From the NCBI RefSeq assembly GCF_000504085.1, contig NC_022792.1, positions 124,001 to 188,000 of the forward strand: a stretch of DNA of 64,000 bases. Direction: 5' to 3'. The notes beneath the pieces are model-generated. The model did not search any database, was not told the origin of the DNA, and saw only the letters and a list, made by a program, of their open reading frames with translations. Source of the DNA: Pseudothermotoga elfii DSM 9442 = NBRC 107921 (GTDB lineage: Bacteria > Thermotogota > Thermotogae > Thermotogales > DSM-5069). Position 1 is the first letter of the stretch; each line of letters opens with the position of its first letter. Of the stretch, positions 6,351 to 9,926 are shown piece by piece. The position numbers and the translations under genes were made by a program.

Positions 6351-7925
6351 TCAAATTACCCATATTTCACTGTATTCATGTGGTGTTTCACAGTACTCAC
6401 AGACTAACCTGTCATCAATTCTTATAAATGAAGCACCAACATTTTCGCCATTCTTCGGATGAGTTATACAGTTTTCATTTTTACATCTAATTTCATCAAA
6501 ATTGTATATCTTAGGAGGTAATTTTATTCTATATTTTTCCTTTACAGAAGCGCCTTTTATGATATTAACAGTTGTATTCGGTGCAATTGCGGCAAGTTTT
6601 TTGATCTCTTTTTTGCTCAGATATCTGTCTGGTAAACTTATGTAACCTTTATAACTTCCATCGGCAGATTTAAAAATACCATCGGCACTATCACAATCAT
6701 GAAGCTTTAGAATTTTCCTGATCTTCACTATTGTATTGAAAATTTCCTCGGTGCTCTTTCCTTTTGATATATGGTCTATAACAGTTCCATTTTCGATGGG
6801 TTTGATTCCACGTTTTCCTTCTTTTGCAACACCTTTTGTCCCATGAACTATTTGGGTAGGTATTATGAATTCATACTCATCTTCTTCTTTCTGGAATGTT
6901 ATTGACTGGTCGCGTTCCATTTCGACAGCCCCACCAAGCAGCGACAACAAAACAACTCTCACCCAGAAACCATTCCTTGCTTGAATTTCCCAACCATTGA
7001 GAGGTAGCTCATCCAGAAAGGTGGGGATTTCTGGATCAATCTTGGGCCTGGGCAAAGGATGGTAGAATTTTGTCCCCTCTTTCACTTTGTCGAGCATATC
7101 TTTTCTGAAAGTTACAGCTTTTCTCAAGATATGCTCTTTTTCAAGAATATCCTCTCCCATTCTCTCAAGCTGTAATCTTGTAAAATACCATATTTTTGCG
7201 ACATCTTTATTTGAGAGATACTCGTCTATCGATGAAAATTTTCTCACCTCAAAACCGTTTGATTTCATTTTTTCGATATAATGCTGTGGCATTTGAATCT
7301 GCTGCGGAGCAATCAGATCGACCTCAACATTTTTGAAAATCTTCAAACCATCCACTTTTGAATGAACTGTTCTGCCGTGCAATAAATCTCCTATTAGAGC
7401 AATCCTGATATGCGAATTATCAAAGTTATTTTGTTCAAGAAAAGTGAATTCATCTAACAGTTCCTGCGTTGGATGTTCATGTTTCCCATCACCACCATTT
7501 ATGAAAGCAGGTCTCTCTATACCATGCCTTTGTGCAAACTCACCCACTTTTCTTTCCAGAAGTCGTGGAACACCTTCAAGCCTTGTTCTGACAACAAAAA
7601 TCGAATAAATTCCATAACCTGTTAGCATATTGAATGTATCGACATAGCTCTCATTCTTGTTGAAGGATGAATGCTCAGCATCGAAGATGTTAACTCTTGC
7701 GTTTTTATGAAATTTCGCTGCATTTATAAATGACTCTTTTGTTCTCGTACTCGGTTCGACAAAAACGATGTAAATATTCACATCTCCTTTGATCTGAAAT
7801 TCACTCATATCCTCCCTATTAAGCCATTTCTGTTTCAGTTCTTTTGTTTTCTGATAGAGAAATAACTGCTCATCGATAGTAAAATCCCTGATCAACGCGA
7901 GAGTTCTTCCACGAAAACTCCTCAT
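6351..7925 (-). CDS. pyrBI: Aspartate carbamoyltransferase, catalytic-regulatory fusion
   Basis: The 524-residue protein joins the catalytic and regulatory chains of aspartate transcarbamoylase, which makes N-carbamoyl-L-aspartate in pyrimidine synthesis. The catalytic half (about 1-345) has STRTKESF for carbamoyl phosphate, HPTQEL, and HPLPR near residue 300. The regulatory half (about 350-524) shows GTVIDHI, the nucleotide-binding region, APNTTVNII, and four zinc cysteines C481, C486, C509 and C512 with the same spacing as E. coli PyrI. A PyrB-PyrI fusion is known in Thermotoga. The start has a GGGAGGTG ribosome binding site that lies inside an upstream leader ORF; the leader stop and this ATG are one nucleotide apart. 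An attenuator-like terminator directly precedes the gene. Confidence 0.96.
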   Translation of the reverse strand: MRSFRGRTLALIRDFTIDEQLFLYQKTKELKQKWLNREDMSEFQIKGDVNIYIVFVEPSTRTKESFINAAKFHKNARVNIFDAEHSSFNKNESYVDTFNMLTGYGIYSIFVVRTRLEGVPRLLERKVGEFAQRHGIERPAFINGGDGKHEHPTQELLDEFTFLEQNNFDNSHIRIALIGDLLHGRTVHSKVDGLKIFKNVEVDLIAPQQIQMPQHYIEKMKSNGFEVRKFSSIDEYLSNKDVAKIWYFTRLQLERMGEDILEKEHILRKAVTFRKDMLDKVKEGTKFYHPLPRPKIDPEIPTFLDELPLNGWEIQARNGFWVRVVLLSLLGGAVEMERDQSITFQKEEDEYEFIIPTQIVHGTKGVAKEGKRGIKPIENGTVIDHISKGKSTEEIFNTIVKIRKILKLHDCDSADGIFKSADGSYKGYISLPDRYLSKKEIKKLAAIAPNTTVNIIKGASVKEKYRIKLPPKIYNFDEIRCKNENCITHPKNGENVGASFIRIDDRLVCEYCETPHEYSEIWVI

Positions 7926-7926
7926 T

Positions 7927-8043
7927 TTAACACCTCCCTGAAAAATAAAAAAGGTCAGCTATTGCTGACCTTCTATAAATATTCAGATTTAAAAAACAAA
8001 AATATTCTTGCTGTGGCAAACATACCAATACTAACGAAAACAT
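7927..8043 (-). CDS. Putative leader peptide of pyrBI
   Basis: A short ORF runs from ATG 8043 (38 residues; an alternative ATG at 8049 gives 40) through the terminator hairpin and stops with TAA one nucleotide before the pyrBI ATG. GCGGGG lies 6 nt before the 8043 start. The peptide is rich in Phe, Leu and Tyr because its middle is encoded by a U-rich mRNA stretch (about 7988-8007). The E. coli pyrBI leader peptide (44 residues) has the same arrangement: it is translated across the attenuator and ends near pyrB. Its role here would be ribosome-coupled control of termination; the sequence of the peptide itself may not matter. This is inference from layout, not homology. Confidence 0.5.
   Translation of the reverse strand: MFSLVLVCLPQQEYFCFLNLNIYRRSAIADLFYFSGRC
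7941..7972 (-). terminator. Rho-independent attenuator before pyrBI
   Basis: On the minus strand AAGGTCAGC, loop AATA, GCTGACCTT makes a perfect 9-bp stem (7951-7959 with 7964-7972), followed directly by TTTTATTTTT. It lies between the promoter and pyrBI and ends about 16 nt before the pyrBI ATG, so any transcript of pyrBI must read through it. No gene upstream on this strand needs a terminator, which marks it as an attenuator. Confidence 0.75.
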
Positions 8044-8080
8044 ATTCATCCCCGCTTTTATTAACCGATTATCTTCATTT

Positions 8081-8109
8081 ATGTTATCACAACATGTGAA
8101 ATCGTCCAA
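8081..8109 (-). promoter_or_regulatory. Candidate promoter of pyrBI
   Basis: On the minus strand TTGGAC (8109-8104), a 17-nt spacer, then TAACAT (8086-8081) preceded by TGA, which gives an extended -10 (TGnTAACAT). Transcription would start near 8074, giving a leader of about 150 nt and a 5' UTR of about 30 nt before the leader peptide. A second TTGACA at 8144-8139 lacks a good -10. Confidence 0.5.
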
Positions 8110-8171: not shown

Positions 8172-9926
8172 ATGTCGCATGTAGCAACCCTCAGTAATGT
8201 AAGTATCAGTTTTCCGGAGAAAACTTTATTTACAGAGTTCACAGTCAATATATCAAAGAAAGATCGCATAGGACTGATGGGAAAAAACGGCAGTGGGAAA
8301 AGTACCCTTTTAAAAGCAATAGCGGGTATTTTTTTAGATTATACTGGACAGATAAGCGTTTCCGGCAAGATTCTCTATATGGATCAACTTAGATCATTCA
8401 ATGCTCGAACACCTTTTGAATATTACGCATCAACAGCCGATACACCCAGGAAATTAAGAGATGTGAGAAGTATCTTGAAAGGTTTCGGTTTTGAAGAAAA
8501 AGACTGGCACAGAGATATCTCGACTTTCAGCGGTGGCGAAAAGACCAAACTTCAGCTCGGAAAACTGTTCTTAGAGGAACCAAATTTTCTATTACTCGAT
8601 GAGCCAACAAATTTTCTCGATGTACAGGCAATAGAGTTCCTCAAAAATTTGTTGAGAAAATTCCCGGGAGGTTATATAGTTGTTGCACACGACAGAAATT
8701 TTTTAAGAAATGTTTGCGAAAAATTCTGGGAAATTAACAATGGCCAGATCTGGATCTTCGATATGGATTTTGATAGATATAGAAAGGAACGAGAAACAAT
8801 ACTTAAAACTCAGGAGCGGCGAATTGAAAATATTCAAAAAGAAATCGACAGACTAAAACACATCATAGATCAGTACAGAAGATGGAACAGAGAAAAATTT
8901 TTCAAGCAGGCTAAAAGCAGGGAGAAACTTCTGAATAAAATGTATGAAGAACTTGAAAATATGCCAAATCTCTATTTGCAGGAAGAGGAAAAAAACATAA
9001 AAATACCGATCCCGGATAACACCGGTCACGTAGTGCTTGAAGTTATTGATGTTTCCTGGAATTCCCTTTTGAAAAAAATCAATTTTACTGTTTATCAAAA
9101 AGATAAAATAGCCATAATTGGTCCAAACGGATCTGGAAAAACAACGCTGTTGAAGATAATTACTGGCCATTTACGCCATAATGGTACTATAAAAATCGGT
9201 CACAATGTAAAAATGGTCTTCGTTGACCAGTTCATATCACAGCTTGATCCTGAGAACACTGTTTTCGACGAGATCTTTGAAGAAATGCCAGATCATCCGG
9301 ATTATGTCATCAGATCATATGCTGGAAGATTCGGCTTCAAGGGAGAAAATGTATTTAAACAGATTTCTCAATTGAGTGGTGGGGAAAGGCAAATTCTTGC
9401 TATCGCAAAGATTCTTTTGAGAAAACCAAATCTTTTAATTCTTGATGAACCAACAAATCATATGGATTTGCAAACAGTTGAGGCCCTCGAAAAAGCTCTT
9501 AAAGAATACGAGGGAAGCGTGCTGCTGGTATCACATGATCTTGAGCTTGTGAGTAATGTCTGCAATCGCTTTTTTTCCATAATTAACGGTGAAATCGTTG
9601 AAGTAGATAGTCCTGTTATCCTCTTTGAGAAAAAACCAACAATTTTCAAAACAAAAAATCGCCCATTTGAAGAAAAAAAGAAATTGAGAAACCAGCTAAA
9701 AAACCTGCAGGAAATACTGGAGAACCTTTCAAAGAAGGAAGAAGATCTCTGCGGAAACATAGAGCAAATAGACAATAAACTTTCTCTGACAAACGACTAC
9801 AATGAGATAACATCCCTGATAAAAGAAAAGGAAAAACTTGAACAAGATTTGTTGACAGTTATGGAAGAAATGCAAAAAACTCGGGAAAAAATAGAAAATC
9901 TTCAAGCCCACCTCAGTGAATTTTAA
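8172..9926 (+). CDS. ABC-F family ATPase with two nucleotide-binding domains
   Basis: The 584-residue soluble protein has two ABC ATPase domains and no membrane segment. Domain 1 has Walker A GKNGSGKST, signature FSGGEKTKL and Walker B LLLDEPTNFLD. Domain 2 has GPNGSGKTT, LSGGERQIL and LILDEPTNHMD. The charged helical linker between them (about 205-285) is the arm that reaches into the ribosome in ABC-F proteins, and the last 80 residues are a predicted coiled coil as in Uup. ABC-F proteins act on translating ribosomes, some relieving stalling or antibiotic block; which subtype this is cannot be decided by eye. ATG start with AGAAGGTG upstream. Confidence 0.9.
   Translation: MSHVATLSNVSISFPEKTLFTEFTVNISKKDRIGLMGKNGSGKSTLLKAIAGIFLDYTGQISVSGKILYMDQLRSFNARTPFEYYASTADTPRKLRDVRSILKGFGFEEKDWHRDISTFSGGEKTKLQLGKLFLEEPNFLLLDEPTNFLDVQAIEFLKNLLRKFPGGYIVVAHDRNFLRNVCEKFWEINNGQIWIFDMDFDRYRKERETILKTQERRIENIQKEIDRLKHIIDQYRRWNREKFFKQAKSREKLLNKMYEELENMPNLYLQEEEKNIKIPIPDNTGHVVLEVIDVSWNSLLKKINFTVYQKDKIAIIGPNGSGKTTLLKIITGHLRHNGTIKIGHNVKMVFVDQFISQLDPENTVFDEIFEEMPDHPDYVIRSYAGRFGFKGENVFKQISQLSGGERQILAIAKILLRKPNLLILDEPTNHMDLQTVEALEKALKEYEGSVLLVSHDLELVSNVCNRFFSIINGEIVEVDSPVILFEKKPTIFKTKNRPFEEKKKLRNQLKNLQEILENLSKKEEDLCGNIEQIDNKLSLTNDYNEITSLIKEKEKLEQDLLTVMEEMQKTREKIENLQAHLSEF

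Follow-up and report, generated by a model that had tools for sequence, protein, structure and literature searches.

In Escherichia coli, the pyrBI leader (pyrL) comprises a promoter, a leader open reading frame (ORF), a U-rich stretch and a terminator located within the ORF, followed by pyrB; the leader peptide has about 40 residues, and coupling between ribosome and RNA polymerase is the expected switch. The leader stop codon lies about 20 nt upstream of pyrB. In the rph-pyrE attenuator of the same species, an ORF extends up to or into the terminator in front of the pyr gene. PyrR attenuators and translational repressors (Rfam RF00515) form another class of pyrimidine control by RNA.

The pyrBI gene of Pseudothermotoga elfii, in the 64,000-nucleotide stretch of DNA analysed here (the window), is preceded by the same order of parts as E. 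coli pyrBI, with a leader peptide of similar length. We hold it to be fairly probable that this leader is an attenuator in which translation of the short leader ORF decides whether the terminator hairpin forms, with a UTP-responsive coupling as in E. coli pyrBI.

Layout of the pyrBI leader

The leader is read on the minus strand and displays the following features.

8104..8109, minus strand: promoter-like -35 element TTGGAC, by resemblance to the consensus only, with a 17-nt spacer to TAACAT
8081..8086, minus strand: promoter-like -10 element TAACAT, with a TG one base upstream (extended -10 type)
8050..8055, minus strand: probable ribosome-binding site of the leader ORF, GCGGGG, from its duplex with the 16S 3' end
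7927..8049, minus strand: leader ORF with predicted product MNMFSLVLVCLPQQEYFCFLNLNIYRRSAIADLFYFSGRC followed by a stop, an open frame through the terminator with positional counterparts in L002, L003 and L004
7991..8004, minus strand: U-rich stretch TATTTTTGTTTTTT (11 U in 12), where RNA polymerase may slow in a UTP-sensitive way by presumed pausing
7949..7974, minus strand: attenuator (intrinsic terminator) hairpin AGAAGGTCAGC-AATA-GCTGACCTTTT, from its fold and conservation
7941..7952, minus strand: U-rich terminator tail TTTTTTATTTTT, read from the sequence
7931..7938, minus strand: pyrBI Shine-Dalgarno (SD) GGGAGGTG, within the 3' end of the leader ORF
6351..7925, minus strand: pyrBI, fused aspartate carbamoyltransferase catalytic and regulatory chains, 524 aa (NF009916)
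8172..9926, plus strand: ABC-F family ATPase, divergent neighbour (NF000355, 382 bits)

Re-reading the window bore out the order of parts given in the preliminary description, namely a promoter-like site, a leader ORF, a U-rich stretch, a terminator in the ORF and pyrBI. The promoter was not picked by a generic consensus scan and stays promoter-like; a similar TGA-TATCAT is present in the pyrBI leader of a family mate (L004). Two starts are possible for the leader ORF, ATG 8049 (40 codons) and ATG 8043 (38 codons). The latter is better spaced from GCGGGG, and the 20 nt preceding it can pair with the 16S 3' end at -9.2 kcal/mol at best. The ORF stops at TAA 7929-7927, one base ahead of the pyrBI ATG (7925), and the full-length fused pyrBI product scores 1004 bits against the NF009916 profile (cut-off 800).

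The hairpin, with its core GGTCAGC-AATA-GCTGACC at 7970-7953, has a predicted fold of about -16 kcal/mol, which none of 200 shuffles equalled (z -4.85). Since chance alone would give the terminator scan a hit of this kind every 2 kb, the scan is weak evidence by itself and the weight is carried by conservation. The terminator sits between the promoter-like site and pyrBI, as in attenuators of the E. coli pyrBI type. As the upstream ABC-F gene is divergent, no upstream gene can own this terminator, which would act on pyrBI alone. We also observed the motif NTGAATA at 7986-7981 (minus strand); it recurs 5' of the attenuator hairpins in most pyr leaders, mostly in one frame and at a variable distance from the hairpin.

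Proposed mechanism

We infer that transcription starts about 110-150 bases 5' of pyrBI, in which case the leader ORF would be transcribed. With ample UTP, the polymerase would pass fast through the U-rich stretch and outpace the first ribosome; behind it, with the ribosome lagging, the hairpin (7974-7949) would fold and transcription would terminate in the U-tail. With scarce UTP, the polymerase would slow in the U-rich stretch and the ribosome would catch up, its footprint over the hairpin arms allowing read-through into pyrBI. In every leader that we tabulated, a ribosome positioned on the stop codon of the leader would mask the first hairpin, if it is assumed to cover 12 nt ahead of that stop. 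Ribosomes near a terminator suppress termination in E. coli (PMC4824070; PMC5021804). Because the ribosome would end at TAA 7929, within the pyrBI ribosome-binding region, translation of pyrBI is probably coupled to that of the leader. The pyrC-K-D-F-E operon and the pyr operons of relatives may be under the same design, with PyrR kept for uraA.

Does the ribosome act through an alternative RNA fold? In leader-peptide attenuation of the trp/his type, stalling at specific codons switches between an antiterminator and a terminator. A leader peptide and a terminator are both present in our leaders, but the upstream pairings available to the terminator 5' arm are only short or G-U-rich and none is conserved. 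As there is no consistent pairing of this kind, a switch through an antiterminator is unlikely, and the simplest view is that the ribosome occludes the hairpin directly. Furthermore, the leaders share no codon run, their peptides are not conserved, and the ORF passes through the terminator itself. Attenuation of the trp/his type is thus exceedingly improbable here.

Conservation in related genomes

The preliminary description had staked its reading on close relatives keeping the ORF and the hairpin. This expectation held: the pyrBI leaders found in the family, four in all (that of the window, L002 and L003 from genus mates, and L004 from the same family), have a terminator and an ORF running into it. 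The core GGTCAGC-N4-GCTGACC and its U-tail are kept in L002, L003 and L004 at the same place as in the window, and the leader sequence is divergent among the four. The leader ORFs of L002, L003 and L004 (MRIPKKIVQISPLGSKIKKLFLSACDCKGRLFFSKLNIYKKVSKS, MEILCRATKILRLDCKTEQLFQSACRCQERIFFHNEYLMKVSGS and MTTFYLCNKKFILLTIKVQKVSKS; 45, 44 and 24 codons, respectively) stop at a TGA within the hairpin 3' arm; the window hairpin is read in a different frame, yet is open as far as pyrBI. Neither L002 nor L003 has a good SD, and their ORFs start almost at the predicted transcript end. A leader ORF that would place the ribosome on the terminator hairpin is kept in these relatives. In L005, a MAG from another family, a 19-codon ORF stops a few bases 5' of the hairpin. 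As a separate observation, a genus mate (G003, 94% complete) has a pyrC-K-D-F operon with an attenuator, and pyrBI was not detected in it.

The wider Thermotogota present other arrangements. In the genomes that we take to be Thermotoga-type, a dhfr-like gene ends in the terminator loop, the terminator lying some 20 nt ahead of the ribosome-binding site of pyrBI, and in those that we take to be Thermosipho-type the upstream gene ends at the hairpin foot before pyrBI. Terminators lie 0-10 nt after a stop codon in 8 of 28 cases in G021; since terminators near stops are common there, the pyrBI loci of these two types are leads only. No terminator was found in the pyrBI leaders (L006-L014) of the Fervidobacterium-type set, two genomes of which bear the name Fervidobacterium. 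Several of these leaders present a small, apparently covarying hairpin (AGTCGG/CCGACT or AGCCGG/CCGGCT, loop GYMAGA) before a conserved AACGTGGGGGGAG.

A second pyrimidine operon with the same design

The pyrC-K-D-F-E operon of the window genome (leader L102) also has a leader ORF, MFFFNLKKMNIFDLYKGIVVFIERGFKPLLFCKKCEVSDIESL, with a strong SD, running through a hairpin, GGGGCTTTAAGCCCC-TTTTATTTT. Orthologues of this pyr operon in eight or more relatives share the ORF-through-terminator design: L103, L104 and L106 are arranged as L102, and the leader ORF of L105 stops inside the hairpin. In L107, L108, L109, L111 and L039, an unfused pyrB comes first in the operon and a single ORF spans two tandem terminators.

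L107:6250-6309: two tandem terminators in one leader ORF before pyrB (orthologous leaders in L108, L109, L111 and L039)

In L107, L108, L109 and L111, the leader ORF and the start of pyrB overlap in ATGA or GTGA. Indels among these four leaders are multiples of three or are compensated, and L109 displays compensating one-base changes around the first hairpin. In L040, a 32-codon ORF stops 1 nt 5' of the hairpin. The carbamoyl-phosphate synthase leaders presented no terminator in the Pseudothermotoga loci examined.

Rarity of the design

We counted leader terminators over 1.30 Mb (60% of the window genome, 1139 ORFs). A terminator lies just upstream of 26 of these ORFs; for eight of the 26, no gene on the same strand ends within 100 nt upstream. 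Within the 1.30 Mb, pyrBI and pyrC alone have both a terminator in the 5' leader and an SD-preceded ORF of at least 35 codons through the hairpin; as the pyrC region was deliberately included, the count is not blind for pyrC. A dapA-like gene has a 31-codon ORF, the start of which lies just 37 nt before the hairpin.

Could the leader ORF be a chance open frame, with the hairpin causing constitutive partial termination or affecting mRNA stability? The chance of a leader ORF, estimated from shuffles, is 0.006-0.25 per leader, so that a single case may be fortuitous with a probability of up to 0.25, and the 26 ORFs above attest to terminators close to genes elsewhere. These per-leader statistics are modest. 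The combined P-value is 7e-5 when 12 leaders are treated as independent, and 0.003-0.02 with one leader per clade (0.02 under the strictest treatment of relatedness). Against a chance frame, however, the design recurs in at least 12 leaders at two loci, with an SD before most, and there are stops that overlap the start of the structural gene and indels that are compensated. We consider this explanation very improbable.

Nature of the signal

The preliminary description had placed the expected pausing at the U-rich stretch. U-richness there is extreme in both leaders of the window genome, but ordinary in most relatives. The pre-hairpin parts of the pyrBI and pyrC leader ORFs are 49% U, which places the total U of both leaders in the top 0.5% (about 0.4%) of coding windows; a 12-mer with 11 U, like that of pyrBI, was seen in 0.04% of coding windows and in none of the sampled 5'-flank windows. 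The ten further leaders tested have an unexceptional U content (combined P-value 0.20), and in the hypogea-type genus (L107, L108, L109 and L111) the first hairpin is not preceded by a U tract. A discrete U-tract pause is therefore not a conserved part of the design. The weak TTGC/GCAA hairpin pointed out before the U tract is present, but we found nothing to back a role as pause signal. On the whole, the ribosome-coupled attenuator first proposed gained from the comparison of relatives and from the second pyr operon, whereas UTP sensing through U-tract pausing keeps its earlier standing: UTP-dependent slowing is plausible in the window leader, and we infer that UTP is the signal.

The signal may alternatively be the general translation-transcription balance (growth rate, charging or leader initiation), a well-translated leader cancelling the hairpin without any UTP-dependent pausing. 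This would fit with a conserved part that consists of the ORF through the terminator and not of the U-richness, and with leader peptides that have no single-amino-acid run in common. However, the design occurs at two pyr operons and when the same criteria are applied, at no other gene in the scanned 60% of the genome, a restriction that points to a pyrimidine signal, and the U-richness of both window-genome leaders is exceptional. We regard a coupled attenuator with such a general signal as rather unlikely.

PyrR and other RNA switches

PyrR is encoded in all genomes of the family (in the window genome at G000:C1:470070-470588, 228.7 bits). UMP-bound PyrR might then bind the leader RNA and block leader translation or favour the terminator. 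However, a search with RF00515 found nothing in the genomes of the family, and nothing up to E=10 in the pyrBI leader. Nor did a direct PyrR-loop pattern match any of the pyr leaders, and pairings with the terminator 5' arm are, as described above, short or G-U-rich and not conserved. The pyr leaders are thus devoid of a recognisable PyrR site. PyrR could act on them via an unrecognised site, but control of these operons by PyrR appears improbable to us.

The same pattern does match before uraA in six Pseudothermotoga genomes, and nowhere but uraA in the 1.30 Mb of the window genome.

uraA leader PyrR loops: L129 and L139 (G000, near G000:C1:663400); also L123, L124, L126, L127 and L128

A textbook PyrR loop, CCTTTAATTTGCTCCTGTGAGGGCAGAAAGG, overlaps the SD of this uracil permease gene; the RF00515 search did not report it. 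Such an overlap suggests, as far as sequence can tell, that PyrR represses the translation of uraA. With a PyrR loop at uraA and terminators in leader ORFs at two synthesis operons, it is uptake that appears to be under PyrR.

An Rfam search of the leaders at gathering level returned nothing, and one search gave only tRNA. Matches of the pyrBI leader to L20-leader, GlmZ and Phe-leader were far below cut-offs and reflect the terminator hairpin; they were discarded. An AGTCC...GGGGCT pairing in the hypogea-type leaders was also rejected as a PyrR loop, as it is devoid of the CCNGNGAGG loop of other Thermotogota PyrR loops.

Significance

On balance, we lean slightly towards a pyrimidine regulon outside Proteobacteria that senses by coupling between ribosome and RNA polymerase. 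It would comprise several de novo pyr operons with terminators lying inside translated leader ORFs, among them tandem terminators in a single ORF translationally coupled to pyrB, and PyrR would serve for uracil uptake only. In the literature searched (subscription papers lay outside its coverage), we found no earlier report of coupled pyr attenuators in Pseudothermotoga.

If true, this would imply tight transcription-translation coupling in thermophilic Thermotogota. It would bear on whether tight coupling extends outside the model Proteobacteria; Bacillus subtilis was reported to differ from E. coli in this respect (PMC7819879). Attenuators that need a close-following ribosome would offer a direct test of coupling in a deep-branching thermophile, a single genome of which supplies two natural reporters. 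The pathway would also be split within itself, with PyrR loops for uptake and coupled terminators for synthesis.

Comparison with known systems

Relative to RF00515 systems, the Pseudothermotoga genomes share the control of pyrimidine genes by RNA, an encoded PyrR and a loop before uraA, but differ in that the pyrBI and pyrC leaders studied here yielded no PyrR loop. In the Thermotoga-type genomes, PyrR was not found above the cut-off. The Thermotoga-type pyrBI loci and L040 resemble E. coli rph-pyrE more than E. coli pyrBI, and the Thermosipho-type loci also have a likeness to rph-pyrE; unlike rph-pyrE, the ORF of the window is a dedicated short leader and not an upstream enzyme gene.

E. coli pyrBI shares the order of parts, but several features set the window leader apart: its stop abuts pyrBI, PyrBI is fused, the U-rich stretch is not conserved among relatives, the pyrC operon has the design too, and one genus has tandem terminators. 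The two leaders have no detectable sequence relation, and the Thermotogota leaders are short and cannot be aligned even between the genera examined. Since nothing enterobacterial can be aligned with them, convergence is as likely as common descent. Should the likeness to E. coli have arisen by convergence, control through UTP-sensitive coupling would be a solution that evolves readily.
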